The notes beneath the pieces are model-generated. The model had not been told where the DNA came from, did no database searches, and was given only the letters and a program-made list of their open reading frames with translations. A stretch of 23,299 nt of DNA from positions 1 to 23,299 of IMG/VR virus record IMGVR_UViG_3300040801_000926; one strand, 5' to 3'. Of this stretch, positions 6,947 to 20,200 are shown piece by piece. This stretch comes from a virus. The stretch's first letter is position 1; every line of letters begins with the position of its first letter. A program made the translations under genes and the position numbers.

Positions 6947-6980
6947 ACTAAATACCCCATGAACTATTCAATGGGGGTAT
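6947..6980 (+). promoter_or_regulatory. Late-type -10 element inside an RBS-hiding hairpin before the GIY-YIG gene
   Basis: ACTAAATA at 6947-6954 matches six of eight bases of the T4 late octamer. ATACCCCAT (6952-6960) can pair with ATGGGGGTAT (6971-6980) with one bulged G, closing a ten-base loop. The 3' arm contains the GGGGG ribosome-binding site of the next gene. A late RNA starting near 6960 would lack the 5' arm and leave the site free. Confidence 0.6.
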
Positions 6981-6984
6981 GTCC

Positions 6985-7821
6985 ATGTGGCTATATGAGG
7001 GGGAAGAATTCTCCGAAGACATCAAGAAGTACGAAGGGTTCGTTTATCTGATCGAAAATCTTACCAATGGACGAAAGTACGTTGGTAAGAAGTCGTTCTG
7101 GCAACGTAGAAAAAATCGCAAGACAGGTAGACGACAGAAAAAGGAAAGCGACTGGAAGAAATACTTTGGTTCATCTGATGAAGTGAAGGCCGATGTCAAA
7201 GAACTCGGTGAAGAAAATTTCAAACGCACAATCCTACGCTTGTGCATCTATGCCAAAGAAATGTCGTTCCATGAACAACGTGAGCAATGGGAACGTGGTG
7301 TCCTACACACGGATGAATACTACAACACCAACATCGGGGGCAAGTTCTTTGTAACCGAATCTGAGAAGATTTATGGGGTCGAGTACACCGTAACGACCAA
7401 AAACGATGCGTGGAGAGAAGAAGCAAGTGCCCGGATGACAGGGGACGGCAATATTGCAAAGCGTCCTGATGTACGGGCCAAACTTTCAGAAGCATCCAGC
7501 GGTGAGAATAATGCCATGTTTGGTAAGACGGGTGCCGATCACCCCCGGTACGGAACCAAGCATGGTCCAGAGTTCTCTGAGAAGACATCTGGGGAAAACC
7601 ACCATTCATATTCCGGTAAGTGGGTCACCCCGTGGGGTGTATTCACCAGCGTGGATCGAGCGAGTAAGGACCCGGCCGCTTGGCTAAAGGGATATGCTAT
7701 CCGAAGTGCGTGTTCAAATCCGGAGAAAAGTGTCAACAAGCGACACCTACAGTATGGGTACAGGAAAGAAGACTTGGGAAAAAGGTTCATCGATCTCGGT
7801 TTTTACCGAGAATTTGATTGA
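6985..7821 (+). CDS. GIY-YIG homing endonuclease with NUMOD-type repeats
   Basis: The 278-residue protein opens with MWLYEGEEF, then a GIY-YIG core (FVYLIENLTNGRKYVGKKS), the YFGSS motif and a Glu-containing stretch (SFHEQREQWE). The middle carries NUMOD3-like DNA-contact motifs (SGENNAMFG, GADHPRYG). A C-terminal segment (WVTPWGVFTSVDRAS, then AIRSACSNPEKSV) resembles helix-turn-helix DNA-binding modules of phage homing enzymes. ATG 6985 is preferred because GGGGG lies seven bases upstream; ATG 6979 is too close to it. The gene stands alone between tRNA and accessory genes. It probably cuts a neighbouring site in related phages to spread itself. Confidence 0.9.
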   Translation: MWLYEGEEFSEDIKKYEGFVYLIENLTNGRKYVGKKSFWQRRKNRKTGRRQKKESDWKKYFGSSDEVKADVKELGEENFKRTILRLCIYAKEMSFHEQREQWERGVLHTDEYYNTNIGGKFFVTESEKIYGVEYTVTTKNDAWREEASARMTGDGNIAKRPDVRAKLSEASSGENNAMFGKTGADHPRYGTKHGPEFSEKTSGENHHSYSGKWVTPWGVFTSVDRASKDPAAWLKGYAIRSACSNPEKSVNKRHLQYGYRKEDLGKRFIDLGFYREFD

Positions 7822-7846
7822 CACGGAACGAACCTTGCTATATACT
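7818..7846 (+). promoter_or_regulatory. Consensus sigma70 promoter for the tRNA cluster
   Basis: TTGACA at 7818-7823 and TATACT at 7841-7846 are separated by exactly 17 bases. The -35 box overlaps the stop codon of the GIY-YIG gene. It reads into the 24-codon frame and the three tRNA genes that follow. Confidence 0.85.
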
Positions 7847-7885
7847 ATATCGACATTGAAAATTTCCCCCAAATTCGAGAACGAC

Positions 7886-7960
7886 ATGAACGACCGCACA
7901 CGCACAATGCGAAAACGAAAACACGCTGCCAAGCGTGTGCGGTCTGTCGTGTCCGTCTGA
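7886..7960 (+). CDS. Possible 24-residue highly basic peptide
   Basis: A short frame starts at the first ATG after the 7818 promoter and encodes a peptide rich in Arg and Lys (TMRKRKHAAKRVRS). It has only a weak purine-rich site (CGAGAAC) upstream. It could be a real small peptide, a leader, or chance. Its position between a strong promoter and the tRNA genes is what makes it worth noting. Confidence 0.35.
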   Translation: MNDRTRTMRKRKHAAKRVRSVVSV

Positions 7961-7999
7961 TCCCCTTCTGATCTGACCAAGACACTATGACCCACACAT

Positions 8000-8075
8000 G
8001 GGTCCGTAGTGTAATTGGTAGCACACTATCCTTTTAAGTTAGCCAGTGGGAGTTCGAGTCTCCCCGGACCCACCA
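8000..8075 (+). tRNA. tRNA-Lys(TTT)
   Basis: The acceptor stem GGGTCCG/CGGACCC, the D-arm closed by GTGT/GCAC, and the anticodon loop CTTTTAA with anticodon TTT at 8033-8035 are all visible. The T-arm is GGGAG/CTCCC around TTCGAGT. CCA is encoded at 8073-8075. The anticodon stem has one T-T mismatch. It reads AAA and AAG lysine codons. Confidence 0.93.
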
Positions 8076-8084
8076 AACAACCAT

Positions 8085-8157
8085 GCCCCGGCCGAATGGA
8101 CGGAGTTGACGCTACGAACGTTGATGCGTGTAGGTTCGAGTCCTACCCGGGGTACCA
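8085..8157 (+). tRNA. tRNA-Arg(ACG)
   Basis: The acceptor is GCCCCGG/CCGGGGT with a G-T first pair. The anticodon loop CTACGAA carries ACG at 8114-8116, identical to the loop of E. coli tRNA-Arg(ACG). The stem TGACG/CGTTG has two wobble pairs. The T-arm GTAGG/CCTAC and encoded CCA are intact. The D-region is only 15 bases (CCG/CGG stem), the same short form as in tRNA-Arg(TCT) at 14413, which supports it as real. The A34 would need host TadA editing to inosine. Confidence 0.85.
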
Positions 8158-8162
8158 AATCT

Positions 8163-8239
8163 GGACCTGTCGTATAAATGGCAATTACCCCGGACTCTTA
8201 ATCCGGCTGATGAAGGTTCAAATCCTTCCGGGTCCACCA
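8163..8239 (+). tRNA. tRNA-Lys(CTT)
   Basis: The acceptor is GGACCTG/CGGGTCC. A perfect anticodon stem CCGGA/TCCGG holds the loop CTCTTAA with anticodon CTT at 8197-8199. The T-arm is GAAGG/CCTTC, the discriminator is A, and CCA is encoded. It reads AAG, which appears to be the favoured lysine codon in these genes. It is the second lysine tRNA within 250 bases. Confidence 0.93.
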
Positions 8240-8243
8240 ACAT

Positions 8244-8283
8244 GATAAATACCCTGTATTAACCAGATACGGGGTATTTTTTT
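8244..8283 (+). terminator. Terminator hairpin overlapping a late-type octamer, in front of an HNH gene
   Basis: AATACCCTGTAT and ATACGGGGTATT form a long stem (about 12-13 pairs, loop TAACCAG) followed by seven T residues, so it should end the tRNA transcript. The 5' arm overlaps GATAAATA (8244-8251, seven of eight T4 late bases). The 3' arm holds GGGG, the only ribosome-binding site for the ATG at 8284. RNA starting near 8257 would avoid the hairpin. Confidence 0.8.
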
Positions 8284-8634
8284 ATGAAGACGTGTCCGAA
8301 ATGTGGAGAGACCAAAGAACTATCCGAGTTCTATGATCGGGGGAAGACAGGCAACAAGATTGCATGGTGTAAGGATTGCATGAAGAAGGCCGGACGTGAG
8401 AGAATGCAAGATGTCAAGGCCAAGTGGCTTGAGTACAAAGGTGGTGCCCGTTGTTCGATTTGTGGCTACGACAAGTACATCGGTGCATTGGAGTTCCACC
8501 ACGTCAACCCAGATGAAAAAGAGTTCTCATTCTCAAAGATGCGGTCCTATAACTTCGAACGGGTCAAACCAGAACTTGACAAATGCATCGTGGTATGCTC
8601 GAATTGCCACAAGGAACTGCATAGCGAATTATGA
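8284..8634 (+). CDS. HNH homing endonuclease (zinc-binding)
   Basis: The 116-residue protein has an N-terminal zinc pair set (CPKCGE, WCKDC) and a C-terminal HNH nuclease domain: CSICGY, then LEFHHVNP with the double His, then VVCSNCHKELH. The ATG follows directly after the T-run of the upstream hairpin, so it is probably silent on read-through RNA and expressed from the late-type octamer. The stop overlaps the next ATG (ATGA). The gene sits next to the tRNA cluster, a common home for phage HNH genes. It could act as a homing nuclease or, less likely, have a host-directed role. Confidence 0.9.
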   Translation: MKTCPKCGETKELSEFYDRGKTGNKIAWCKDCMKKAGRERMQDVKAKWLEYKGGARCSICGYDKYIGALEFHHVNPDEKEFSFSKMRSYNFERVKPELDKCIVVCSNCHKELHSEL

Positions 8635-8828
8635 GAACCTTTTCTTTTTGTGACATTGATGGAACCCACGTCATCACAGATGCCGAAATCATCCGTGATT
8701 ACTTCCCCTATTGGTCTGGGAAGATGAAAGAAGTGGGTAAAGAAGACCTGATCAATCATGCAAATTGCATTGATGACTTCTGTGTCCTACACTGGGCATC
8801 GGAAATACTTGGAGATGATGAACTATGA
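8631..8828 (+). CDS. Hypothetical acidic protein, 65 residues
   Basis: The start is coupled to the HNH stop by an ATGA overlap and the end overlaps the next gene by four bases. The protein is short and acidic, with an N-terminal FSFCDIDGTHVITDAE segment. The DxDGT string resembles the first motif of HAD-family phosphatases, but the rest of that fold is missing in 65 residues, so the likeness is probably not functional. No family is assigned. Confidence 0.75.
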   Translation: MRTFSFCDIDGTHVITDAEIIRDYFPYWSGKMKEVGKEDLINHANCIDDFCVLHWASEILGDDEL

Positions 8829-9067
8829 ACAAAATCGAGCGTGCAAAGCGAATCGCTGAACTGGCCAGCAACCACGAATGTCTTACCGAGGCCCTTGGAG
8901 AATTGGCCGGGGGTAAGCGGTTCAGTATCCGTTCTGCCATGGGTGGATACGGCATGTACAACTATTCAAAGGACGCTTTCGACTTTCTGACCGATGAAGA
9001 CATCGGGGCCATCAACAAGCTACGTGCCCGCAAGCGTGCCATTGAAACCGAACTCAAGGCCCTGTAG
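8825..9067 (+). CDS. Hypothetical helical protein, 80 residues
   Basis: The start uses an ATGA overlap with the preceding gene. The N- and C-terminal helices are basic (IERAKRIAEL, KLRARKRAIETELKAL) and flank a glycine-rich middle (SAMGGYGMYNYS). The last ten bases, including the TAG stop, are also the first ten bases of tRNA-Met, so the stop is formed by tRNA positions 8-10. The function is unknown. Confidence 0.75.
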   Translation: MNKIERAKRIAELASNHECLTEALGELAGGKRFSIRSAMGGYGMYNYSKDAFDFLTDEDIGAINKLRARKRAIETELKAL

Positions 9068-9132
9068 CATATGGGTAATGCTTGCCCCTCATAAGGGTGA
9101 AGAATCCGGTTCGAGTCCGGCCGGGGCCACCA
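9058..9132 (+). tRNA. tRNA-Met(CAT), or tRNA-Ile2-like
   Basis: The acceptor is GGCCCTG/CGGGGCC with one T-G wobble. The D-arm is GCAT/ATGC around a GGGTA loop. The loop CTCATAA has anticodon CAT at 9090-9092, held by TGCCC/GGGTG. The T-arm TCCGG/CCGGC has one mismatch at its base, and CCA is encoded. CAT could mean elongator Met, or Ile after lysidine editing; base sequence alone does not decide. Its 5' end lies inside the preceding coding region. Confidence 0.88.
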
Positions 9133-9204
9133 TTCAAAAAAATCCTTGAAGTTTTCTCACCCATGACCGATAATACGGTTGTGGGTTGAGAAAACGACTG
9201 AGGA
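9133..9204 (+). promoter_or_regulatory. Early promoter/RBS cassette, copy 2
   Basis: The -35 TTGAAG (9146-9151) and -10 GATAAT (9169-9174) are 17 bases apart, directly after the CCA end of tRNA-Met. The leader GGTTGTGGGTTGAGAAAACGACTGAGGA is a slightly diverged cassette form and supplies the ribosome-binding site for the 9210 start. Confidence 0.85.
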
Positions 9205-9209
9205 CAATG

Positions 9210-9485
9210 ATGGAAACTTTCAAATTCAACGCTTCGGATATGGTCAAAGGCAAGACCAACTATATCCGCTTCAACACCCGGGCACGTCCCGAAAAATTCA
9301 TGCTCATGTCTGAGCGCACCGGCAAATGGATCATTGTCACCCTTGACAAGGAAGCCACAACCGACCTGTACATGAAAATGGAAGGTTGGGATGGTGAGTA
9401 CGATTGTGCCCTGTACAAGGGAACCACCAACGGTGGAATCGAAGTCACTGTCGAACTCGGCAACACCCCCTACGATGAATTCTGA
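9210..9485 (+). CDS. Hypothetical early protein, 91 residues
   Basis: ATG 9210 is preferred over ATG 9207 because it stands at a better distance from the cassette AGGA. The protein looks like a small beta-rich domain (FMLMSERTGKWIIVTLD, then CALYKGTTNGGIEVTVELG). It has no signal peptide or membrane span and no family is recognised. It is a one-gene unit between two promoter cassettes, a setting typical of small early phage proteins that act on the host. Confidence 0.8.
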   Translation: METFKFNASDMVKGKTNYIRFNTRARPEKFMLMSERTGKWIIVTLDKEATTDLYMKMEGWDGEYDCALYKGTTNGGIEVTVELGNTPYDEF

Positions 9486-9501
9486 GAATTAAACGACTCA
9501 A

Positions 9502-9574
9502 TTTCAAAAAAGACTTGAAGTTTTCGCCAAGACAACCGATACTATGGTTGTGGGTTGAGACAACTGAGTGAGGA
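9502..9574 (+). promoter_or_regulatory. Early promoter/RBS cassette, copy 3
   Basis: The -35 TTGAAG (9515-9520) and -10 GATACT (9538-9543) are 17 bases apart. From TTTCAAAAAAGAC through GAGTGAGGA this copy is almost base-for-base the same as copy 1. It drives the SprT-like gene at 9581 and the two genes after it. Confidence 0.87.
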
Positions 9575-9580
9575 AAAATC

Positions 9581-10129
9581 ATGAACCTGAGTGAAGCACG
9601 AATTCTTGCAGAACTGTACATCGAAAAATACCTGTCCAATCAGGATGGTGGTCGCTGGCATTTCGCATGGAACAATCACAAGCGCACCTATGGGATGTGC
9701 ATATATGGGAAGAAACAGATCGTTCTGTCCAAATTCCTGACACCGCATTGTTCCGAAGCTGAAGTGGAAGACACCATTCTCCACGAAATCGCACACGCAC
9801 TGACCCCGGGGTCTGGACACGGCCGTCTGTGGAAGATCATGGCCCGCAAATTGGGTGCCAATCCCTACTCCACCCGTGCGTTGGATGATGATCAGAAGGA
9901 AGCCGTCTCCGAACACTATAAGTGGGTGATGATCTACATGGGTGAACCGGAAAAGATCATCAAAGGGTACTACCGCAAACCGAATGCTACCACGTTCGCC
10001 AAGATCGGCCGCATGTGGCTTCGCAATCGCATGCGTGAGACCAAAGGCAAACTTACCATCGTCCCGGCTTCTGAGTACAAGAAGCTGAAGGCCCGGAAAG
10101 CTGTCAAAGAATCGAAATACACGTGGTGA
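9581..10129 (+). CDS. SprT-like zinc metalloprotease
   Basis: The 182-residue protein carries the zinc-protease signature HEIAH at residues 68-72 (catalytic Glu 69) and the third ligand region SGHGRLW (His 80). It is preceded by the SprT-type strand (YGMCIYGKKQIVLSKF). SprT/Spartan domains cleave DNA-bound proteins and are often carried by large phages. The C-terminal 80 residues contain a basic region (RMWLRNRMRETKGK, KKLKARKAVKESK) that could bind DNA. It is the first gene behind promoter cassette 3, so it should be made early. The target is unknown; removal of proteins trapped on DNA is an inference from the family. Confidence 0.9.
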   Translation: MNLSEARILAELYIEKYLSNQDGGRWHFAWNNHKRTYGMCIYGKKQIVLSKFLTPHCSEAEVEDTILHEIAHALTPGSGHGRLWKIMARKLGANPYSTRALDDDQKEAVSEHYKWVMIYMGEPEKIIKGYYRKPNATTFAKIGRMWLRNRMRETKGKLTIVPASEYKKLKARKAVKESKYTW

Positions 10130-10134
10130 ACGAC

Positions 10135-10488
10135 ATGAAAGCGAAACTTCTCGGTACAATCACCCCGGAAATGGTCATAGGACTGCGCCACTACCCCGGT
10201 GAGACGATTCAACACTTCAGTCCTATCGATGGGTATGTCACCCGGCCGAAGCCGGTGGTGAGGCTTGGAATCGGTGCACTGGGCACCTACCAAGCCGTGG
10301 ACATCGGCAAACGTGTGTACAAGGTTGGTTCTGTTCATCAAGTGGAAAACGTTGAACAGGTACAGAAGCGCACCGGTCGGACGTTCGAGCAACAAAAGGC
10401 CGCTGGTGAGGAAGCCATCAAACAGGCAAAGGCTAAGTATAAAGGTGAGAAAACCATCTGGGGGACAACAGTCTGGGCACCGGCATGA
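10135..10488 (+). CDS. Hypothetical protein, 117 residues
   Basis: ATG 10135 begins six bases after the SprT-like stop; two in-frame GTG codons at 10123 and 10126 are possible earlier starts. The N-terminal half looks beta-rich (KLLGTITPEMVIGL, VVRLGIGALGTYQAVDIG). It is followed by a charged helix (QVQKRTGRTFEQQKAAGEEAIKQAKAKYKGEK) and a short tail. It is in the same unit as the SprT-like gene and overlaps the next gene by four bases. The family is not recognised. Confidence 0.78.
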   Translation: MKAKLLGTITPEMVIGLRHYPGETIQHFSPIDGYVTRPKPVVRLGIGALGTYQAVDIGKRVYKVGSVHQVENVEQVQKRTGRTFEQQKAAGEEAIKQAKAKYKGEKTIWGTTVWAPA

Positions 10489-10718
10489 TCGATTCAGGAC
10501 ACAATCACCAAAACACATTCGGCACGTGTACCTTTGTGGAGTTCAAGGTTCACGTGTCTGAGTTCTTCGCCTTGGCAAAGACCGCAACGGCCGAACAGAT
10601 TGAACACGGGTTCAAAGCCCTGACGATCTTCTACTTTGGTTTGGATGAAGGCACTTCCGAACTGGACCTTCACCAAGCCGGGTTGTTGTTGGAGATGGCC
10701 GGTCGAGAAGTAAAGTAA
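10485..10718 (+). CDS. Hypothetical protein, 77 residues
   Basis: The start overlaps the preceding stop in an ATGA junction, so it is probably co-translated as the last gene of the cassette 3 unit. The protein is acidic and helical (EHGFKALTIFYFGLDEG, LDLHQAGLLLEMAG), with His and Asn near the N-terminus. It has no zinc motif, signal or membrane span, and its role cannot be read from the sequence. Confidence 0.77.
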   Translation: MIDSGHNHQNTFGTCTFVEFKVHVSEFFALAKTATAEQIEHGFKALTIFYFGLDEGTSELDLHQAGLLLEMAGREVK

Positions 10719-10721
10719 TCA

Positions 10722-10792
10722 GTTGAAAAAAAGACTTGAAGTTTTCTCGCCCATGGTCGATACTATGGACGTGGGTTGAGAACTAAGTGAGG
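10722..10792 (+). promoter_or_regulatory. Early promoter/RBS cassette, copy 4
   Basis: The -35 TTGAAG (10736-10741) and -10 GATACT... read here as CGATACTATGG, with GATACT at 10759-10764, are 17 bases apart. The leader is shortened (GTGGGTTGAGAACTAAGTGAGG) compared with copies 1 and 3. ATG 10798 follows the GAGG at a normal distance. Confidence 0.85.
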
Positions 10793-10797
10793 TTGAC

Positions 10798-11142
10798 ATG
10801 AGTTACCCCGTCTATATGACCAAGGCCGCTTTTACCGAACAGGCTTTCCGTCTCTTCGTTACCTTCGTGGTGCGCAACGGTGTACTGAGCCGTGGACAGG
10901 CACTTGAAGAAGTCGAGATCATGAAGTCTGCCGGAATGGACCTAACTTCTGACATGTCCATGACCGAACGTGAAAGCCGCTACCTGACCAAACAGCGTAT
11001 CGGTGCCAGCTTCCCGCTGACCCGGGCAGACCGCAAGAATCTGTTGCTGTCGCTGGAAAACGCAATCAACCATGCCACGTTCGATGACGAACTGGTTGGA
11101 AACCCTGACAAATACCTGATGTGGCACGGGGGTGCGGCATGA
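10798..11142 (+). CDS. Hypothetical early protein, 114 residues
   Basis: This is the first gene of the cassette 4 unit. The protein is mostly helical: a hydrophobic N-terminal helix (FTEQAFRLFVTFVVRNGVL), a polar middle (GMDLTSDMSMTERESRYLT), and a C-terminal helix (RADRKNLLLSLENAINHATF). It looks soluble rather than membrane-bound. The stop overlaps the next ATG. No family is recognised; a host-directed early function is possible from its context only. Confidence 0.8.
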   Translation: MSYPVYMTKAAFTEQAFRLFVTFVVRNGVLSRGQALEEVEIMKSAGMDLTSDMSMTERESRYLTKQRIGASFPLTRADRKNLLLSLENAINHATFDDELVGNPDKYLMWHGGAA

Positions 11143-11402
11143 ACAACGAAACCATTCTGGCTGATAGCCACCATGTTCAACTGATGGTTGACCGGGGTCA
11201 ACTGATCCCGTCATCGTCCCGGCCCGGGTCCGGCAAGTATGCCCTGATCCAGCGGATCAATGAGTACGACTACTCCGGTCAAGTGGTCGGGTCCCGTCTG
11301 GCCGTGTGTGCCATCGGCTACCGGCACAACATGCGTGCACAGTACCCGGACGCTGAAGTTCGGACGAAGGAATCTACCCGTTGCGCATGTTGCGGAAAAT
11401 AA
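11139..11402 (+). CDS. Hypothetical protein with C-terminal CACC motif, 87 residues
   Basis: The start is taken at the ATGA junction with the preceding gene rather than an upstream in-frame codon. The protein has a serine/proline patch (PSSSRPGSGK), a beta-rich middle and a C-terminal RCACCGK, where a CxxC pair could bind metal, although a second pair is missing. It ends right at promoter cassette 5. The function is unknown. Confidence 0.76.
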   Translation: MNNETILADSHHVQLMVDRGQLIPSSSRPGSGKYALIQRINEYDYSGQVVGSRLAVCAIGYRHNMRAQYPDAEVRTKESTRCACCGK

Positions 11403-11475
11403 TTTCAAAAAGGGGTTGAAGTTTTCCGAAACATGACCGATACTATGGTTGTGGGTTGAGACAACTGAGTGAGGA
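11403..11475 (+). promoter_or_regulatory. Early promoter/RBS cassette, copy 5
   Basis: The -35 TTGAAG (11416-11421) and -10 GATACT (11439-11444) are 17 bases apart, followed by the full-length leader GTGGGTTGAGACAACTGAG and GAGGA. It starts directly at the stop codon of the preceding gene. It leads a run of five overlapping small genes up to 12830. Confidence 0.87.
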
Positions 11476-11483
11476 ACTTGAAA

Positions 11484-11882
11484 ATGGCAATGCCGAAAAC
11501 CGTTTCTGAAGTCTTGAATCTTTCCAAAGAGTGGATGGATGCCGAGCAAAAAGCCATCGTTGATCTGATCGTCAAGAATGACGGTTCGATCCGGGCAACC
11601 AAACCGAAGGTTGATGAAACCAACCCGGTTACTGGCAAGGCTGCCTACGTGTGGAGAATGGTGGTCTTCATCGTGTCACCGAAGGGTGTCCACCAATGCT
11701 GGCCGGTCACCGCTGACTTCGATCTGCCAGCGTATGACGAATCCGGCAAGTGGTCTTCGGCACTCTCACGTGAGATGGCCAAGGAACTGAAGCCGATTGA
11801 AGACGCAATCATCGGGTCTATCCCGACCAACCAGTGGGCCGGTGCCATGCGTTGGGGCCGTGCCTTCGGTCGGATAGCATGA
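11484..11882 (+). CDS. Hypothetical early protein, 132 residues
   Basis: ATG 11484 fits the cassette 5 ribosome-binding site; ATG 11490 is an alternative. The protein begins with a helix (VSEVLNLSKEWMDAEQKAIVDLIVK), continues with a beta-rich domain (AAYVWRMVVFIVSPKGVHQCWPV), and ends with an acid-rich helix and a Trp-containing tail (NQWAGAMRWGRAFG). It heads a chain of tightly overlapping genes. No family is recognised. Confidence 0.8.
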   Translation: MAMPKTVSEVLNLSKEWMDAEQKAIVDLIVKNDGSIRATKPKVDETNPVTGKAAYVWRMVVFIVSPKGVHQCWPVTADFDLPAYDESGKWSSALSREMAKELKPIEDAIIGSIPTNQWAGAMRWGRAFGRIA

Positions 11883-12269: not shown

Positions 12270-12699
12270 GATGAAAGACTGGGGTGGTCACATCATGTAC
12301 GATGGTGATCAGCGTAGGGCAATCGTCCGAACTGATACCAAGAAGATGGCCGCTGAACTGTTTGATGTGTCGATGAACTGTCTGAACGACTACTTCAGTG
12401 TCACCGGCAACAAAACGGAAAAGGCTGCCCTTGACATTGCCGGACCCAATGTGGTATTGGTAGAAGTCGAGAGAGACCGAAAGGTGTTCAAGAAATTGCC
12501 ATACAGTTTCCGGAACGTTCTTCCCCGGAAGATACCGAAACTGTCTGACCTGACACTGTGCAACGAATACCACATTGCGTGTATCATGCGTGACAACGGT
12601 GAGTTCTATCACGACTGGTACCAGCAATACATCGAACAACTTGAAGCTGAAATCGAAAAGCGAGGCATAGAATGGACCACGACAAGCAACTTGAAGTAG
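12259..12699 (+). CDS. Hypothetical protein, 146 residues
   Basis: The start has a strong purine tract (GGAAGGGTGGAAG) a few bases upstream; ATG 12271 is an alternative. The protein has a helical first half (TKKMAAELFDVSMNCLNDYF), a central beta region (NVVLVEVERDRKVFKKLPYS), and a C-terminal charged helix (QQYIEQLEAEIEKRG). It looks soluble. It overlaps the small membrane protein gene by 28 bases. The function is not recognised. Confidence 0.78.
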   Translation: MPREMKDWGGHIMYDGDQRRAIVRTDTKKMAAELFDVSMNCLNDYFSVTGNKTEKAALDIAGPNVVLVEVERDRKVFKKLPYSFRNVLPRKIPKLSDLTLCNEYHIACIMRDNGEFYHDWYQQYIEQLEAEIEKRGIEWTTTSNLK

Positions 12700-12830
12700 A
12701 AGCACTGAGTCATCCCCGGATTGAAGTCCCGGAAGACTACACCATGCCGAAAGCCGTGTTGGCCGCAAGCAAGTTCTTCGCAATCGTGATCATTGGATCG
12801 TTGGCCCTTGCCTTCATCCTCAGTTTGTAA
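12672..12830 (+). CDS. Small single-span membrane protein, 52 residues
   Basis: A 52-codon frame starts inside the preceding gene. Its C-terminal half is one hydrophobic span (FFAIVIIGSLALAFILSL) after a charged N-terminal part (MDHDKQLEVEALSHP). This gives a tail-anchored layout with the N-terminus most likely in the cytoplasm. It is the last gene before a strong terminator. Small membrane proteins in phage early regions often target host membrane functions or block superinfection; that role is speculative here. Confidence 0.65.
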   Translation: MDHDKQLEVEALSHPRIEVPEDYTMPKAVLAASKFFAIVIIGSLALAFILSL

Positions 12831-12864: not shown

Positions 12865-12904
12865 GGGATCGGCTAAATACCTTTTAGCTGATCCCATTTT
12901 TTTT
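12865..12904 (+). terminator. Strong terminator with late-type octamer in its 5' arm
   Basis: A 13-base-pair stem (GGGATCGGCTAAA with TTTAGCTGATCCC, one G-T pair) closes a TACCT loop and is followed by eight T residues. It ends the cassette 5 unit. GCTAAATA at 12872-12879 (six of eight T4 late bases) lies in the 5' arm and loop, so an RNA starting near 12885 could not form the terminator. Confidence 0.88.
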
Positions 12905-12920: not shown

Positions 12921-13619
12921 ATGAAATCCTTTTCAGAATTCATCACAGAATCCAATTCGTCCGGGTGCACCCGTTTCTATACCGGTGAACCCCTTGAGAC
13001 TGGTGGTACGTCTATCGCTGGTGATGTTGCACCACCGATCCGAGACCTGTTCAAAAAAGGTGTCATCAAACAGGGTGACACGATTCTGGACTACGGTGCC
13101 GGTAAGTACGGCCGCAATGCCAACTGGCTACGTGAACAAGGATGCAACGTCTTCGCATTCGACCCATACAACGGAAAGACTTCTGACGGATGGGAAGGTG
13201 TATCGAGTCAGAAGCCGAAAAACGTCCCCCACTCCCTGAAGTTCGATATTGTGTTCTCGGCATACGTCTTGAACGTGGTACCCGAGCATGTTGAGTCCGG
13301 AATTCTTCAGGACATCAAGCGATACAAGGGAGATGCCAAGGAATTCCACATTACCCGGAACAAGGACATCTTCGACAGTGTGAAGAATGCCCTTGCCCGT
13401 GGAGAGAAGACGGTTACCAATTTCTTCAAGCGACACTTCATGGAACAAGATGAAGCAACCGCATCGGTCACTATCGATGACCTGTCAGATGACTTGATCA
13501 GAGAGTTCTGTTGCTTCGGGGTTCAGACATCCCGTGGCTTCCAGCGTATCCCATTCCTTGAGTCAAAGGGATTCAAACTGATGCGTTCAACCGGTGGTTT
13601 CAAAGTTTACACCCGTTGA
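12921..13619 (+). CDS. SAM-dependent methyltransferase with a capsid-targeting-like N-terminus
   Basis: The 232-residue protein has a class I methyltransferase fold signature. Motif I is ILDYGAGKYGRN (residues 55-66), the acidic end of strand 2 is FAFDPY (Asp 81), and the motif IV region is FDIVFSAYVLNVVPE (108-122). The first ten residues, MKSFSEFITE, closely match the T4 capsid-targeting peptide MKTYQEFIAE found on internal head proteins, with FITE/S fitting the prohead protease cut after Glu. It follows a terminator containing a late-type octamer and has only a weak ribosome-binding site. It may be packaged in the head and injected with the DNA. The substrate (DNA, RNA, protein or small molecule) is unknown. 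Confidence 0.82.
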   Translation: MKSFSEFITESNSSGCTRFYTGEPLETGGTSIAGDVAPPIRDLFKKGVIKQGDTILDYGAGKYGRNANWLREQGCNVFAFDPYNGKTSDGWEGVSSQKPKNVPHSLKFDIVFSAYVLNVVPEHVESGILQDIKRYKGDAKEFHITRNKDIFDSVKNALARGEKTVTNFFKRHFMEQDEATASVTIDDLSDDLIREFCCFGVQTSRGFQRIPFLESKGFKLMRSTGGFKVYTR

Positions 13620-13674: not shown

Positions 13675-13857
13675 ATGTCTGTTAAATCCTTTTCTGAATT
13701 CAACCATGATCGTTTCGATGCTGAAAGCAAGAAGCGTAGGCTGAAAGAGAACAAGGCCAAGCGTGCCAGCCAAAAGCAACGTCTTCGTGACATCAATCTG
13801 GATGAAGACTACGATGATGATTTCGAGGCCATGGAGAAATTCAGGAACAGATCATGA
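13675..13857 (+). CDS. Small highly charged protein, 60 residues
   Basis: An AAGG site lies about ten bases upstream. The N-terminus SVKSFSEFNHDRF resembles the start of the methyltransferase just upstream (MKSFSEFITES), but it lacks the I-x-E protease site. The middle is very basic (KKRRLKENKAKRASQKQRLR), and the C-terminus is acidic (NLDEDYDDDFEAMEKF). Small charged proteins with this kind of start recall T4 internal head proteins, so a packaged role is possible. An early regulatory role is equally open. Confidence 0.78.
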   Translation: MSVKSFSEFNHDRFDAESKKRRLKENKAKRASQKQRLRDINLDEDYDDDFEAMEKFRNRS

Positions 13858-14065: not shown

Positions 14066-14404
14066 ATGCAAATTATCGTAACCATGAAATCTGGTAAGGT
14101 CGTCAAAGGCCGTGAGCAATCGTTTGAAGATGCGTGGGCCGAAGGACAAGAACAAGGCCGTGCGCAACTTGGTGACCAGTTCACCGATGAACTTCTGGCC
14201 GAAAAGATGGCCGAATACATTCAGTCGATTGTCGAGCCGTTGGAAAACCATGGGGTCAAGAACCTTGCCACATTCAAACTCGGCAACGAAGACGGTACCC
14301 ACTACTTCCATATCGACAACATCGATTACGTTACCGTGATCGGTCTGGAAGAGATGGCCGATGCGATCCATGAAAAAATCATGGAACTCCAAGAAGCCGA
14401 ATAA
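14066..14404 (+). CDS. Hypothetical acidic protein, 112 residues
   Basis: ATG 14066 follows the preceding stop by two bases; an in-frame TTG at 14060 is a less likely start. The protein begins with a beta hairpin (QIIVTMKSGKVVKG), then has a long helix (FEDAWAEGQEQGRAQLG), and ends with YFHIDNIDYVTVIGLEEMAD and an acidic helix. It has no membrane span or metal site. It ends eight bases before tRNA-Arg. The family is not recognised. Confidence 0.78.
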   Translation: MQIIVTMKSGKVVKGREQSFEDAWAEGQEQGRAQLGDQFTDELLAEKMAEYIQSIVEPLENHGVKNLATFKLGNEDGTHYFHIDNIDYVTVIGLEEMADAIHEKIMELQEAE

Positions 14405-14412
14405 ATATCATT

Positions 14413-14484
14413 GCCCCCACCGATTGGACGGTAACGGGACTTCTAATCCTGTGAATGTGGGTTCGAATCCTACTGGGGGTGCCA
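14413..14484 (+). tRNA. tRNA-Arg(TCT)
   Basis: The acceptor is GCCCCCA/TGGGGGT, with a G-T first pair. The anticodon stem CGGGA/TCCTG holds the loop CTTCTAA with TCT at 14442-14444. The T-arm is GTGGG/CCTAC around TTCGAAT. The discriminator is G and CCA is encoded. The short D-region (CCG/CGG stem, 15 bases) is the same as in tRNA-Arg(ACG) at 8085. It reads AGA and AGG, codons that are rare in many hosts. Confidence 0.9.
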
Positions 14485-14515
14485 ATTTCTTTCAATATGA
14501 CCCGTGGAGTAAGAC

Positions 14516-14848: not shown

Positions 14849-14860
14849 GGAATCTTCAGC

Positions 14861-15762: not shown

Positions 15763-15771
15763 GGGGTTCCC

Positions 15772-16647
15772 ATGCTGTTACTTGACCTGTCATCGGTGGT
15801 CATCACTGCGATTGTTGACCTACTGGTGACCGGGAAGAAGACCCCGGACGGACAAGACTGGGAATTGAATGACAACCTTGTCCGTCATGTGGCCATTTCC
15901 CAAATCCTGAACTACAAGAACCGGTTCCGTAAGTTCGGAGAACCGATCTTGTGTGCCGATAGTTCCAACTATTGGAGAAAGCAAGTCTTTCCGAACTACA
16001 AGCAAAACAGGAAGAAGCATCGTAGCGAATCGAACATCGATTGGAACAGGTTGTTTGACCTGTTCGATCAGATCAGAGATGAACTGCGAGAAAACTTCCC
16101 GTACATGATCATCGAAATCGCCAGAGTCGAAGCGGATGACATCATTGCGGTGTTGGCCCGTGAGACTGATGAAGATGTGATGATCGTATCATCGGACAAG
16201 GACATGGTTCAGCTTCAACTGAAGCACGGCAAGCGGATTCAACAGTATTCCCCGGCCGTCAAGAAGCTGATCACCCCAAAGTCAAAGGACTACAGCCTAA
16301 CCATGCACATCATGCGTGGGGACGATGGGGATGGCATTCCAAACATCCTGTCTGATGATGACGTGTTTCTGTGTGACGATAAGCGACAGAAACCAGTGTT
16401 TCAGAAGTTCATCGATTCAGTGGACCAAGCGGAAGATCAGCTTGAAGCGATTGAAAACCCAACTGCCCGCAAGAAGTTCAAGCGGAATCGGCTTCTGATT
16501 GACATGGACTACATTCCGCAACGTGTTGTTGAATGGGTTCATCAAGGGTATGCGCAAGAACAGGAACGTCCGAAGAAGAAACGGATTTACCCGTACCTGA
16601 AAGAAAAGCGCATGAAGTTACTACTCGAACGAATCGGAGAATTCTAA
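15772..16647 (+). CDS. rnh: RNase H / 5'-3' flap nuclease, T4 Rnh type
   Basis: The 291-residue protein aligns with T4 Rnh (305 residues), which removes RNA primers and flaps during lagging-strand synthesis. Seen here are the N-terminal LLLDLSSV (catalytic-type Asp 5), SNYWRKQVFPNYKQNRKKHR, the central EADDIIAVLARE, the VSSDKDMVQL stretch, MRGDDGDGIPNI, and the C-terminal LLIDMDYIP and LLERIGEF. The GGGGG site six bases upstream supports the start. With primase and RNA ligase it forms a T4-like replication and repair set. Confidence 0.93.
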   Translation: MLLLDLSSVVITAIVDLLVTGKKTPDGQDWELNDNLVRHVAISQILNYKNRFRKFGEPILCADSSNYWRKQVFPNYKQNRKKHRSESNIDWNRLFDLFDQIRDELRENFPYMIIEIARVEADDIIAVLARETDEDVMIVSSDKDMVQLQLKHGKRIQQYSPAVKKLITPKSKDYSLTMHIMRGDDGDGIPNILSDDDVFLCDDKRQKPVFQKFIDSVDQAEDQLEAIENPTARKKFKRNRLLIDMDYIPQRVVEWVHQGYAQEQERPKKKRIYPYLKEKRMKLLLERIGEF

Positions 16648-17069
16648 TGGCCAAAATGCTACTTGACCATCTTCTGGAAATCGAAAAACTGACACCGGCC
16701 AAAGCCCGTGACTACGCTATGGGTCTGTACGTGGCGAACCGGCACTTTGCTGACTATGCCGACCTGTGCTACAACCGTGCGTGGGCATCCCGCTGGTATG
16801 GAAAACGGGTGCCCAACTTCAAGGTTGACGGGGTTCCATACGGATACCACTTTACCCAACTGGAACGCACTGTCAACAAGTTCCGGGCCGGTGGCTTCAC
16901 ATCAACTGTCAACCCGGAAACTGACATTTCCGAAGAGAAGGCATTCAAACTGCTGACTCAAGTCATGGAAGGAATTTCCGATGTCGAACAGAAGTTCCTG
17001 AAGCAAATCCTACGGGGCAAAATCCCCTACTTCACCTTGGAGAACTGGAAGGAAGTTCGCAAGGTATAA
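16647..17069 (+). CDS. Hypothetical protein coupled to rnh, 140 residues
   Basis: The ATG overlaps the rnh stop by one base (TAATG). The protein is helical and basic: MLLDHLLEIEKLTPAKARDY, then RAWASRWYGKRVPNFKVDG, and a C-terminal segment SDVEQKFLKQILRGKIPYFTLENW. The E-x-x-FL-x-QIL pattern is reminiscent of the helical N-terminal domain of DNA ligases, but no nucleotidyltransferase motifs are present. It could be a replication accessory factor judged by its neighbour alone. The family is not identified. Confidence 0.78.
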   Translation: MAKMLLDHLLEIEKLTPAKARDYAMGLYVANRHFADYADLCYNRAWASRWYGKRVPNFKVDGVPYGYHFTQLERTVNKFRAGGFTSTVNPETDISEEKAFKLLTQVMEGISDVEQKFLKQILRGKIPYFTLENWKEVRKV

Positions 17070-17076
17070 AAAAGTG

Positions 17077-17143
17077 TTGAAGTTTCTCACCGGTTAGCCG
17101 ATAATAGAAGTGTGAGAGAGATGAACGGCTACCGAGTGGGGGA
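17077..17143 (+). promoter_or_regulatory. Early promoter/RBS cassette, copy 6 (diverged)
   Basis: The -35 TTGAAG (17077-17082) and -10 GATAAT (17100-17105) are 17 bases apart. The leader has drifted, but GAGTGGGGGACTTCAAC before the ATG at 17151 still lines up with the GAGTGAGGAACTT of other copies. This alignment was used to choose that start over GTG 17112 and ATG 17121. Confidence 0.78.
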
Positions 17144-17150
17144 CTTCAAC

Positions 17151-17333
17151 ATGGACATCATTCTTCTTCCGGCAAATAATGCCTACTGCCTGATCATGGG
17201 TACCGACATCGGTACTTCCAACATCATCGATGTCCAAGGCCAACGCTTCTGGAATACCCGGAAAGAACTGTTGGGTGCCTTGGGTTTCAAATCAATGAAA
17301 GAGTTCCGTGAGAACCTTGCGAGGACCGAATGA
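17151..17333 (+). CDS. Hypothetical early protein, 60 residues
   Basis: The ATG at 17151 stands eight bases after GGGGGA; ATG 17121 would add ten residues. The protein has a beta-rich first half (DIILLPANNAYCLIMGTD) and a helix near the end (MKEFRENLAR). A segment NTRKELLGALGFKSM resembles a short DNA- or protein-binding helix but matches no known family. The end overlaps the next ATG by four bases. Confidence 0.72.
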   Translation: MDIILLPANNAYCLIMGTDIGTSNIIDVQGQRFWNTRKELLGALGFKSMKEFRENLARTE

Positions 17334-17491
17334 AGGGTAAAATGAACCCCGAACGGCTGGCCAAGTTTCGTGAGTCACAGCGGCAAAACAGTCTTGACCT
17401 GATCAAGCGTCTACGTGCCCGGTCTAAGTCCCCGGATGACATGTGGGCCGAGATGGCAAACGAGACTGAAGAAAGATTGAAAAAAACTTGA
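17330..17491 (+). CDS. Small charged helical protein, 53 residues
   Basis: An ATGA junction gives the start; an in-frame ATG at 17342 after AAGGGT is an alternative. The protein is one long charged helix (PERLAKFRESQRQNSLDLIKR) with an acidic second half (MWAEMANETEERLK). Its TGA stop lies inside the -35 box of the next promoter, showing how tightly the region is packed. The function is unknown. Confidence 0.68.
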   Translation: MKGKMNPERLAKFRESQRQNSLDLIKRLRARSKSPDDMWAEMANETEERLKKT

Positions 17492-17545
17492 ATTTTTTCT
17501 CAAGATGACCGATACTATGGGTGTGGGTTGAGAAACGAGTGAGGA
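17478..17545 (+). promoter_or_regulatory. Early promoter/RBS cassette, copy 7
   Basis: The -35 TTGAAT (17488-17493) and -10 GATACT (17511-17516) are 17 bases apart. The leader GTGTGGGTTGAGAAACGAGTGAGGA keeps the cassette ribosome-binding site eight bases before the ATG at 17553. The sixth base of the -35 box differs from the other copies. Confidence 0.84.
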
Positions 17546-17552
17546 AAACAAG

Positions 17553-17744
17553 ATGTCCGAATCCCTTGAAAAGCTGAGTCTCTACAAGACTGCATATTCT
17601 CCGATGTACGAATGCTACGTTGGAATTCTGAAGGTTTACCCGGATGTTGATGGTGTCGCAATCATCAAAGCACGTCTGGCCGGTGAACCCGAAGGTAGTT
17701 ACATCCTGTTTCGTGAACACGAACTGACCAATTTTGTACTGTGA
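17553..17744 (+). CDS. Hypothetical early protein, 63 residues
   Basis: This is the first gene of the cassette 7 unit. The protein reads as a small beta-rich domain (MYECYVGILKVYPDVDGVAIIKARL, then SYILFREHELTNFVL) after a short helical start. The pattern of strands could be an RNA- or protein-binding fold, but no family is recognised. The next gene starts ten bases after its stop. Confidence 0.78.
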   Translation: MSESLEKLSLYKTAYSPMYECYVGILKVYPDVDGVAIIKARLAGEPEGSYILFREHELTNFVL

Positions 17745-17754
17745 GGGTATGAGA

Positions 17755-18204
17755 ATGAATCCTGTAATCAGCGTTGAAGTCTTCCATTCTGCATTTGATG
17801 CCGGTTTTGCCAAAGTGGCAGAATTCGCCAACAATGTCATGATGGGTGTGAATCAAGAACTGGAACGTGCGTTCCGCTACACCAACAGCATTGAAGAAGG
17901 CTGGTGGAAAAACCCCGAGGTCACCAATGTCGGTCCCCGGGTTCTGAAAGACGGTGGTGCCCGTAGCACGTCCGTGGGTGACTACATGTTGGTGAGCTAC
18001 GCTGACGGGTCACAAGAGTGGTACGTGGTAGCCGGGTTCGGTTTCGAGAAAGTCGAAGACGACACCGTGGTCGAGTACGAAGGCTACAACTACTACAAGG
18101 GTCAAGTCCTGAGCCGCTACGGTGAAGAGATGCCCTTTGCTGAACTGCGTGCGTCCAAAGCCAACTACGATCCGAAGGTTGCCCGCATGGAGAGTGCCGC
18201 ATGA
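17755..18204 (+). CDS. Hypothetical protein, 149 residues
   Basis: ATG 17755 is preferred because GAGGG lies seven bases upstream; ATG 17749 is too close to it. The protein has an N-terminal helix (HSAFDAGFAKVAEFANNVM) and a beta-rich C-terminal half with many aromatics (SVGDYMLVSYADG, WYVVAGFGFEKVEDD, YEGYNYYKG). It looks like a soluble two-part protein. The stop overlaps the next ATG in an ATGA junction. The family is not recognised. Confidence 0.78.
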   Translation: MNPVISVEVFHSAFDAGFAKVAEFANNVMMGVNQELERAFRYTNSIEEGWWKNPEVTNVGPRVLKDGGARSTSVGDYMLVSYADGSQEWYVVAGFGFEKVEDDTVVEYEGYNYYKGQVLSRYGEEMPFAELRASKANYDPKVARMESAA

Positions 18205-18566
18205 CCCGTGAAGAAGAACTGAAAGCCCAAGAACAGCGGTTGCGCATGATGGAAAAACCGGCACAAACCACCATGGAAGAACGGGCCGCTGATCCGAAGT
18301 TCGATGCCGTCCGAGAAGCACTGGACCGGTATCATGACCATGACGAAACCTTCAACGCCATGTTGGACGAACTTCACAAGTCCGATGGCCCCACCGGTAA
18401 CCAGCTTGCACAAGACTGGTTCGCTGAACAAGACCGGCTGAAGCTGGTGGTTGGATATGAGTTCGTGAAGGTCACCCCGAATTCGGTTGACAAGGCCCCG
18501 TTGGTTGGGATAGAATTCCCGGAAAGGTGTAGCGGATACATCCGATCTGAGAGAAAGGGTAAATAG
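18201..18566 (+). CDS. Hypothetical charged protein, 121 residues
   Basis: It begins at an ATGA junction. The first half is a charged helix (REEELKAQEQRLRMMEK) that could form a coiled coil. The second half includes FDAVREALDRYHDHDE and a beta segment (LKLVVGYEFVKVTP). Its TAG stop overlaps the GTG start of the next gene. The function is unknown. Confidence 0.77.
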   Translation: MTREEELKAQEQRLRMMEKPAQTTMEERAADPKFDAVREALDRYHDHDETFNAMLDELHKSDGPTGNQLAQDWFAEQDRLKLVVGYEFVKVTPNSVDKAPLVGIEFPERCSGYIRSERKGK

Positions 18567-18799
18567 TGGACAACACACAAAAAGCCAGAGTGATCGAACG
18601 GTTCAAGGGTTTGACGGCCGATGACATGAACTACCGGGCACGTACCGGAAGGGTCAACAAGTCAGACCTTGAACAGTGGGCCGAAGTCCAGAACGATTAC
18701 TGTGTATCGATCCAGTGGTACGTTGCAGAATATGTTTCGTACCGTGGGTCGCTGGCCGTTGTGGTACCAGAACTGAGAGATAGGGGAAAAGATGGCTAA
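18566..18799 (+). CDS. Hypothetical protein, 77 residues (GTG start)
   Basis: The GTG start overlaps the preceding TAG stop, and AAGGG lies seven bases upstream. The protein starts with a helix (QKARVIERFKGLTADDM), has a basic stretch (YRARTGRVNKSD), and ends with a beta/aromatic part (CVSIQWYVAEYVSYRGSLAVVV). The last eight bases overlap the HNH gene that follows. The family is not recognised. Confidence 0.75.
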   Translation: MDNTQKARVIERFKGLTADDMNYRARTGRVNKSDLEQWAEVQNDYCVSIQWYVAEYVSYRGSLAVVVPELRDRGKDG

Positions 18800-19160
18800 A
18801 GACAATTGCCCAACGTGTTCCGGGTTGAAAGATACCCGGGCCAAACAATGCGTGAAGTGCCGGATGCGGGACAATCACCCCCGTGAGACCGGTGAGTGGC
18901 AATTGAACAAGGTTTCCGGGTACATGGAGAAACGTATCAATGGTGTTCACTATTACCAGCATAGATACATTATGGAACAACAACTTGGACGGCCGCTTCG
19001 AGTGGACGAACATGTCCATCACCGGGATGGGAACAAGGCAAATAACGTGCCAGAAAATTTGGAAGTGATGTCCGAGTCAGATCATCATAAAGAACACATG
19101 ACCCCCGAGCGTGCCAAAGAAATGAGCATCTTGGGTCATGAAGCAAGATGGGGAAAATAA
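18792..19160 (+). CDS. HNH homing endonuclease (HNH_3 type)
   Basis: The 122-residue protein has an N-terminal zinc pair (CPTCSG, QCVKC), then a basic domain (YMEKRINGVHYYQHRYIMEQ), and a core EHVHHRDGNKANNVPENLEVM with the His pair at residues 76-77 and the Asn of the HNH motif. This core is the HNH_3 type common in phage and intron-associated nucleases. It overlaps the gene before it and its TAA stop overlaps the next ATG, so it has been fitted cleanly into an operon. Homing is the likely role. Confidence 0.9.
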   Translation: MAKDNCPTCSGLKDTRAKQCVKCRMRDNHPRETGEWQLNKVSGYMEKRINGVHYYQHRYIMEQQLGRPLRVDEHVHHRDGNKANNVPENLEVMSESDHHKEHMTPERAKEMSILGHEARWGK

Positions 19161-19417
19161 TGCTTTACGACTATAAGTGCCACAAATGTGAACACATCTT
19201 CGAAAAGAATTTGAAGATGGTGGACCGCAACAAACCAACCATTGAACCGTGTCCGAAATGTGGCGAAGTGGCCGTGAAGCCGTATATGGGAAACACGGCC
19301 CCAAGTCTGGCCGATCCGATCCGTCTTGGACGACAGAAGCCCCCAAGTGGCTTCAATGAAGTTCTACGGAACATTCAGAAGATCAGTCCCGGGAACACGA
19401 TCAAGGTTAGAGACTGA
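19160..19417 (+). CDS. FmdB-like zinc-ribbon protein
   Basis: ATG 19160 overlaps the HNH stop (TAATG) and has GGGGA upstream; an earlier in-frame ATG at 19148 lies inside the HNH gene. The 85-residue protein starts with MLYDYKCHKC and has a second pair CPKC (Cys 7, 10, 31, 34), the pattern of the FmdB zinc-ribbon family. A longer basic tail follows. These proteins are often regulatory or nucleic-acid-binding, but a precise role is not known. The pair of overlaps suggests that the HNH gene was inserted in front of it. Confidence 0.83.
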   Translation: MLYDYKCHKCEHIFEKNLKMVDRNKPTIEPCPKCGEVAVKPYMGNTAPSLADPIRLGRQKPPSGFNEVLRNIQKISPGNTIKVRD

Positions 19418-19435
19418 AGCAAGGAGAAGTACATC

Positions 19436-19564
19436 ATGGTTATCATGGAAACATCAATGCTTGGCCGTTTCCTGATCTGGATTGGGGTTGCCAAGCCACC
19501 ACCGAAGAGAAAGGTGTTTCGGCAAGTGAAAAACTATCCGTGGAAAGAGACCTACTACCGATGA
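19436..19564 (+). CDS. Small protein with hydrophobic N-terminus, 42 residues
   Basis: A clear AGGAG site eight bases upstream supports this short frame. The first 20 residues are hydrophobic (MLGRFLIWIGVAKPPP), followed by a basic tail (KRKVFRQVKNYPW). The span is short for a membrane helix but could attach to a membrane. The stop overlaps the next start (ATGA). Confidence 0.6.
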   Translation: MVIMETSMLGRFLIWIGVAKPPPKRKVFRQVKNYPWKETYYR

Positions 19565-19791
19565 AATGGCAATGGAACGGGTGGAAGAAATCTTTCTGGA
19601 TCGGCAAGCTGTTGATCAAGGTTCTGATTTCCAAATCAGGATCGTGGTCAACAAAAGAACAGGACAGCAAGTACGAACGTATATACATACTTCATGCCGG
19701 GATTCTTCGAAGTGAGACCGGCCTGAAAGCGTTGTCCATCATCATCGGACCCCTGTCGATCATGACCGGGTTTGCAATCGAGGGGGAGTGA
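19561..19791 (+). CDS. Hypothetical basic/hydrophobic protein, 76 residues
   Basis: The start is an ATGA junction with the 42-residue gene. The protein is rich in Trp and Lys at the N-terminus (MKWQWNGWKKSFWIGK), has a central helix, and ends with a hydrophobic segment (ALSIIIGPLSIMTGFAI) that could be a membrane helix. The TGA stop is formed by positions 8-10 of the tRNA that follows, which overlaps the gene end by ten bases. The function is unknown. Confidence 0.68.
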   Translation: MKWQWNGWKKSFWIGKLLIKVLISKSGSWSTKEQDSKYERIYILHAGILRSETGLKALSIIIGPLSIMTGFAIEGE

Positions 19792-19859
19792 CGGGAATTG
19801 GCATACCTTTGGGGCCTAAACCCCCGAGTTTGTGGGTTCGAACCCCACCTTCCCTACCA
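19782..19859 (+). tRNA. tRNA with Leu(TAA)-type anticodon loop (identity uncertain)
   Basis: The acceptor GGGGGAG/CTTCCCT has two G-T pairs. The D-region (TGACGGGAATTGGCATACC) is leucine-like, and the T-arm is GTGGG/CCCAC. The discriminator is A and CCA is encoded. The anticodon stem TGGGG/CCCCG closes the loop CCTAAAC, which reads TAA at 19817-19819 with an unusual C before the anticodon. A one-base shift would give CTA, an amber-suppressor anticodon, but with two mismatches in the stem. The variable loop is only five bases, although bacterial tRNA-Leu normally has a long arm. Confidence 0.7.
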
Positions 19860-19865
19860 ACTATC

Positions 19866-20138
19866 ATGAGCATGCAAGACATCTACGATGAACTTCTGGA
19901 AGTGGCCGGGGACGAAGAAGCGTTCCAAGCCAAGCGGTTGGAAATCCTTGATCGAGAGATCGGGAAACTACCCGAGGAAGACCAACTGAAGGCCCGTCAG
20001 ATTCAATGGAGAATCGATGGTCAACTTCGGGGGTTGACAGGACTGAACCGCTACAATAAAATGGTGGAACTCTTCTGGGAAGGGTTCGCAAAGTTCAAAG
20101 CGGAACTGGACAAGTTCAGAGACGTAACGAAGAATTGA
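19866..20138 (+). CDS. DUF3135-like small protein, 90 residues
   Basis: ATG 19866 is taken as the start because the longer frame runs back through the tRNA; ATG 19872 is an alternative. The protein is acidic at the N-terminus (DIYDELLEVAGDEEAFQ) and continues RLEILDREIGKLPEEDQLKARQIQWRIDGQLRG. This helical pattern resembles the DUF3135 family, which has no known function. It ends about 60 bases before the HNH gene, with a weak AAACAT/ATGTTT hairpin between them. Confidence 0.72.
   Translation: MSMQDIYDELLEVAGDEEAFQAKRLEILDREIGKLPEEDQLKARQIQWRIDGQLRGLTGLNRYNKMVELFWEGFAKFKAELDKFRDVTKN
20034..20062 (+). promoter_or_regulatory. Candidate sigma70 promoter inside the 19866 gene
   Basis: TTGACA at 20034-20039 and TAAAAT at 20057-20062 are 17 bases apart. 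RNA from it would include the HNH gene and the following tRNA. It lies within coding sequence, so it may be a chance match. Confidence 0.35.
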
Positions 20139-20162
20139 AACATTAGCATGTTTTCCATTCTG

Positions 20163-20200
20163 TATAAATACTGGAAACCAAATTATGGGAGTACAGTATG
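20163..20200 (+). promoter_or_regulatory. Exact T4 late octamer and start-codon hairpin before the HNH gene
   Basis: TATAAATA at 20163-20170 is a perfect T4 late core. ATACTG (20168-20173) can pair with CAGTAT (20194-20199), which covers the first two bases of the HNH start codon. The ribosome-binding site GGGAG lies in the loop. A late RNA beginning near 20176 would lack the 5' arm. Confidence 0.65.

Follow-up and report, generated by a model that had tools for sequence, protein, structure and literature searches.

The question raised by this locus is whether RNA hairpins that enclose a late-type promoter core can act as switches for the genes behind them. The stretch analysed here (the window) is the complete IMG/VR record IMGVR_UViG_3300040801_000926, 23,299 bases in length. 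An earlier note on it had proposed that four plus-strand genes, encoding a GIY-YIG endonuclease (starting at 6985), two HNH endonucleases (8284 and 20198) and a methyltransferase (12921), share a single layout, in which a TAAATA core lies in or beside the 5' arm of a hairpin. This proposal is partly confirmed: the sites and the folds are as drawn, but only three of the four hairpins are convincing. We consider it likely that in these elements of a T4-like phage late expression is gated by the start site, so that the nuclease and methyltransferase genes probably stay silent on early RNAs and are turned on only late. The reading is built on the sequences, their folds, the loss of the hairpins on truncation and the recurrence of the element elsewhere, and from these we infer promoter activity, timing, termination and the effects on translation.

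We have first to consider the TAAATA cores. Their total in the window, 8 against 3.8 +/- 1.85 expected, is by itself unremarkable. Their placement is not due to chance, as 5 of the 8 fall no more than 50 nt upstream of six homing endonuclease gene (HEG) or methyltransferase genes (binomial p ~6e-10, for a gene set defined post hoc). The cores at 6949, 8246, 12874 and 20165 lie 30–47 nt 5' of the four named genes, while the HNH gene at 18792-19160 has no late core upstream. The plus-strand octamers around them are ACTAAATA (6947-6954), GATAAATA (8244-8251), GCTAAATA (12872-12879, within the 5' arm and loop) and TATAAATA (20163-20170), which match the late consensus at 6/8, 7/8, 6/8 and 8/8 positions, respectively. 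Since the T4 late octamer occupies positions -13 to -6 (PMC1524935), the predicted start sites are 6960, 8257, 12885 and 20176. Compared with the T4-type late promoter, which is served by gp55 and has TATAAATA at the same place, the TAAATA core is shared, but the window octamers mostly reach 6–7/8. Two carry C at position 2, as in Aeh1, whose reported late core CTAAATA (PMC1524935) is found twice in the window.

Because a gp55 gene is not recognised in this fragment, the promoter role was tested comparatively. TAAATA is the top enriched hexamer 15–45 nt upstream of open reading frames (ORFs) in T4, phiM12 and Syn9, and it ranks first upstream in six T4-like contigs as well (43 vs 4.0, p 2e-29). 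In Caulobacter phage Cr30 (KF301602) the top upstream hexamer is TAAGTA instead, which suggests a shifted late-promoter consensus in that phage.

The four hairpins were examined by folding and by comparison with shuffled sequences, as the earlier note had advised; two of them turned out strong, a third moderate and the last weak. The composite element at 8247-8283 (+) consists of a 14-bp hairpin (8247-8279, -17.2 kcal/mol, z -4.9, with none of 200 shuffles as stable) and a T7 run, and its 3' arm contains GGGG (8271-8274), the Shine-Dalgarno sequence (SD) of the gene at 8284. It directly follows tRNA genes at 8000-8239, and putatively combines a terminator of the tRNA transcript and an SD mask in one. 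The element at 12865-12904 (+) is a 13-bp terminator-type hairpin (12865-12895, -22.9 kcal/mol, z -5.5, again 0/200 shuffles) with a T8 run; it has terminator features only and leaves the ribosome-binding site and the start codon free. The hairpin TACCCC/GGGGGTA at 6952-6979 (+) is of moderate strength (-11.6 kcal/mol; z -3.0 in a 60-nt segment, but -1.3 when the short piece is taken alone); the SD (6973-6977) that serves ATG 6985 forms its 3' arm, the alternative ATG at 6979 being too near to that SD. The weak hairpin ATACTG/CAGTAT at 20168-20199 (+) pairs the first two bases of the ATG, but its energy (-8.4 kcal/mol, z -0.3 to -2.0) is not significant in 60 nt. The stable stem followed by a U-run that defines an intrinsic terminator is thus present at 8247 and 12865, and absent for 6949 and 20165.

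These folds bear out the claims that the ribosome-binding sites at 6973-6977 and 8271-8274 are hidden and that the structures at 8247-8283 and 12865-12904 look like terminators, whereas the covered start at 20198-20199 stands only in that the bases are paired. The idea of one common layout did not survive. The late core lies in or before the 5' arm in 4/4 elements, but the 3' arm covers the SD or start codon at 6949 and 8246, weakly at 20165, and not at 12874. The layout is thus one theme in three versions: SD masking together with putative termination at 8246, putative termination alone at 12874, and SD masking alone at 6949. When the RNA is truncated to the predicted start sites, all four hairpins are lost, as had been anticipated for RNA starting about six bases past the octamer.

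The anatomy suggests how such a switch would work. Early RNAs made by a host-type RNA polymerase would extend into the genes, yet the hairpin would form in them, hiding the SD or start at 6949, 8246 and perhaps 20165, and ending transcription at 8246 and 12874. Promoter-like early sites are present upstream of the switch genes on the same strand, and may supply these RNAs: a sigma70-like promoter with an 11/12 match (7818-7846, +) precedes the run of tRNA genes ending at the 8247 element, and the early-type promoter TTGAAGTTTTC-N-GATACTATGGTTGTGGGTTGAGACAACTGAGTGAGGA has six long conserved plus-strand copies at 6591, 9515, 10736, 11416, 17077 and 17488, of which the one at 11416-11445 (TTGAAGTTTTC...GATACTATGG) lies upstream of genes running into 12865. 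The late polymerase with a gp55-type sigma would start about 6 bases past the TAAATA core, within the 5' half of the hairpin, and the late RNA would be neither masked nor terminated, because the 5' arm is missing. The composite form would have the promoter core as its 5' arm and the SD plus terminator U-run as its 3' arm, so that a single short palindrome would terminate the upstream unit, lock translation and carry the late promoter. The proposed escape of late RNA from silencing fits the anatomy and is backed by T4 and phiM12 (below), though not as a uniform layout of the four genes.

Mechanistically, this would be the switch known from T4, to which two of the elements appear to add a terminator. 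Early/late hairpin switches have been established for I-TevI, segB, mobE, e and soc (PMC2988022, PMC3014915), and the same scan run over T4 as a positive control returned gene 49, e, segB and I-TevI, which upholds the precedent invoked in the earlier note; the switch in its basic form is thus already known. In the related named phage phiM12, a hairpin-embedded ACTAAATA likewise stands before two GIY-YIG homing endonuclease genes annotated as seg-type: the element at 78717 has -21.8 kcal/mol, and that at 192231 (minus) has -19.0 kcal/mol plus a T6 run, i.e., the composite, terminator-type form. Strong hairpin-embedded cores are also found between the divergent gp48 and gp4 of this phage. Like T4 I-TevI, segB, 49 and e, and Aeh1 mobE, the window elements combine a late core in or before the 5' arm with a late RNA that is predicted to be unable to form the hairpin, and a gene lying behind putative early or middle promoters; a 3' arm over the SD or AUG is shared by 6949 and 8246 and, weakly, by 20165. 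The products of the known switches are nucleases or lysis proteins. Unlike the four T4 examples, the 8246 element, phiM12 192231 and many contig elements have a U-run directly before the ATG, and the 12874 hairpin differs from the T4 and Aeh1 switches in being of terminator type only. With intrinsic (rho-independent) terminators, the 8247 and 12865 elements share a GC-containing stem, a 5-nt loop and a T7–T8 run. Unlike a plain terminator, they have the promoter in the 5' arm, and therefore the start site decides whether the RNA contains the terminator. No description of such a composite late promoter/terminator was found in the open-licence literature searched.

The composite form is not confined to the window. 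A pattern scan (TAAATACCN{3,30}GGTATTTT) across 2.9 million viral contigs gave at least 120 matches, among which are many 'TAAATACC-loop-GGTATTTT-ATG' elements before late-type genes, with the late promoter as the 5' arm and the SD and U-run as the 3' arm. Among the matches listed, an ORF start within 16 nt follows 40/76 of the stable TAAATACC...GGTATTTT hairpins, most often three bases past TTTT, but only 3/45 of the unstable ones (p 1e-7). Among the real hairpins the part of the SD is played by the 3' arm, frequently with GAGG or GGGG, while in a scrambled-core control (10/54 with an ORF start, p 1e-4 against the stable set) the ATG is usually farther away, behind a separate SD. The products behind the composite elements include head-tail adaptor, RuvC- and RusA-like Holliday-junction resolvases, homing and HNH endonucleases, and tail fibres, all of which are expected to be late; the T4 resolvase gene 49 has the older hairpin form. 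A second lock through termination is supported for the 8246 and 12874 elements, and terminator-type elements of this kind also stand before late genes of other phages. Several control loci in viral contigs (L283-L402) have TATAATAACC...GGTTATTTTTTTGGAG...ATG, a sigma70-type -10 box inside a terminator-like hairpin.

Among relatives of the window genes found by protein search, the SegE-like loci L023 and L025 have a hairpin-embedded late core, as do about a dozen of 79 further SegE-like loci. The layout appears to be gained and lost rather than fixed to each family, because it is present in only some SegE-like and few HNH-8284 relatives. Pairing of own arms is stronger than that of swapped arms (-11.1 vs -4.4 kcal/mol, permutation p 2e-4), a comparison biased by the fact that several hairpins were chosen for folding; since this choice favoured folding ones, the result is not used as proof of covariation. 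The SegE-like GIY-YIG proteins are labelled 'NAD synthetase' in PHROG_447 and in many cyanophage records, such as Syn9 gp202 (NC_008296 161618-162085), for which Pfam says SegE_GIY-YIG; this label is, judging by the domain match, a propagated misannotation.

On the other hand, several observations weigh against the switch. Neither gp55 nor gp33 was recognised in the 23-kb fragment, the 20165 hairpin is weak, the SegE-like relative L024 has no hairpin-embedded late core, and the HNH-8284 relatives are mostly without the layout, several of them lying beside tRNAs. The exact pattern TAAATACC...GGTATTT has zero occurrences in 11 reference T4-like phages. Occlusion of ribosome-binding sites near TAAATA exceeds that near control hexamers only to a modest degree (34% vs 26% in T4, 48% vs 30% in phiM12), in a generic test that discriminates weakly in AT-rich genomes. 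Finally, the contig matches include near-identical relatives, and the scan control is not neutral, as it includes sigma70 TATAAT boxes in similar hairpins.

The hairpins at 8247 and 12865 could instead be plain terminators, one for the tRNA unit and one for the gene at 12672-12830, the TAAATA being an A-rich arm that mirrors the U-run and no promoter. Each of them does stand directly behind a transcription unit, A-tracts mirroring U-runs are common in terminators, and two of the cores match at only 6/8. We regard this as unlikely, since TAAATA also precedes 6985, 20198 and 987 (minus) without any terminator and ranks first among upstream hexamers in related phages, and since hairpins with scrambled cores precede ORF starts much less frequently in the contig comparison above. 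Far less probable still is that the palindromes are DNA operators rather than RNA switches, although I-TevI does bind an operator overlapping its own late promoter and autoregulates through it by repression (PMC2988022). The stem sequences vary among relatives while the pairing with the SD or start is kept (many of these hairpins having been chosen because they fold), and the same element stands before structural genes whose products bind no DNA. For the 20165 site alone, the chances are about even that the late promoter is genuine, the hairpin non-functional and the gene simply late. Its full TATAAATA and a hairpin no better than shuffles in 60 nt speak for this, while a local 43-nt fold that beats 189/200 shuffles and covers the ATG speaks against it; being limited to one site, it is compatible with the start-site-gated switch elsewhere.

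The list of genes in the earlier note was incomplete, as it overlooked a GIY-YIG endonuclease gene, the sole minus-strand HEG (430-987; PF01541 4e-10, PHROG 314 8e-26). A perfect TATAAATA at 1000-993 ends 6 nt before its ATG, with no hairpin, and the predicted start site, 987, is the A of the ATG; a leaderless late mRNA is therefore predicted. This gene may need no hairpin, because in an early region transcribed from the plus strand little read-through would reach a gene on the minus strand. The spacing is not peculiar to it. In viral contigs, TA[AT][AG]TA lies at -10 to -12 in 39/76 distinct SegE-like genes (about 11 clusters at 80% identity), none of the 39 having an SD, while the same spacing occurs in 2/205 other ORFs of those loci and 1/1147 in four reference genomes. 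The stop codon of the upstream gene ranges from -6 to -35, and therefore the motif is not part of its coding sequence. Of the 76 genes, 39 are of the spacing type, 20 have an upstream late core and 0 have both. In six such phages the only other genes found with this spacing encode gp25, the baseplate wedge, a true late gene. It is possible, with a chance slightly below even, that T4-like phages have two interchangeable routes to late-start-dependent translation, the composite palindrome or a start site at the A of the ATG, with SegE-like genes using either but never both and gp25 having the leaderless spacing. By the second route, judging from the spacing, read-through RNA would offer no SD and the late mRNA would begin at the ATG. 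No description of leaderless late mRNA in T4-like phages was found in the open-licence literature searched.

The methyltransferase behind the 12874 element (12921-13619, +) is a class I enzyme assigned to PHROG 14016 (function unknown), with Methyltransf_23 (2e-6) as its sole Pfam match; on this match it was rejected as a homing endonuclease. Its N-terminus, MKSFSEFITE/S, resembles over MKSFSEFITE (12921-12953) the capsid-targeting MKTYQEFIAE of T4 IPII/IPIII and contains a plausible prohead-protease site. The T4 internal proteins that carry a capsid-targeting sequence are diverse, injected or packaged, and some have defence functions (PMC3012670). Like IPII/IPIII, the window protein has a targeting-like peptide and a gp21-like cleavage site; unlike them, it has the peptide joined to a methyltransferase, for which packaging is predicted. 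Relatives were not found in the viral contigs, but Vibrio phages do have a homologue, which in a Vibrio Straboviridae phage starts MAKSLNDFLTE/V. The gene is best read, from its sequence, as a late, capsid-packaged and possibly injected product, and not as a mobile gene. A small gene at 13675-13857 likewise starts MSVKSFSEF.

As to the phage itself, a megablast of the whole window against named phages gave no match. Its RNase H, of T4 type, shares 35–41% identity with the enzymes of Sinorhizobium phiM12, Caulobacter Cr30, cyanophages and others, and is encoded alongside an RNA ligase 2 and an apparently intein-bearing ribonucleotide reductase. By these identities and this T4-type gene set, the window appears to be a piece of a deep-branching T4-like phage, and probably covers mostly its early region. 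Catalytic GIY-YIG or HNH domains are confirmed in the four nuclease genes, for which homing is predicted: the SegE-like GIY-YIG endonuclease with a NUMOD3 extension (6985-7821, +; PF19835 6e-38, NUMOD3 3e-4; PHROG homing endonuclease), the HNH endonucleases at 8284-8634 (+; PHROG 2255 8e-37) and 20198-20641 (+; PF01844 5e-6, PHROG 10822 2e-34), the latter overlapping tRNA-Leu 20621, and the minus-strand gene 430-987. The ribonucleotide reductase gene (2448-6017) is split by an apparent LAGLIDADG-type intein at about residues 100–430. In addition, AATAAATA at 14400-14413 has a predicted start (14413) that coincides with the 5' end of tRNA-Arg 14413-14484; this may be chance, because the site overlaps a stop codon.

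Compared with what is known from T4, the new points are the recurrence of the composite form among environmental phages and, within the same gene family, a second solution that is putatively leaderless. If the reading is true, the early/late RNA switch would no longer be limited to a few genes of T4 but would be a part that recurs among environmental T4-like phages, and a transcriptional lock would join the translational one. It would connect genes that are harmful when made early, such as homing nucleases and Holliday-junction resolvases, with late structural genes, and would provide short sequences, amenable to testing, whose termination and translation hinge solely on the transcription start site.

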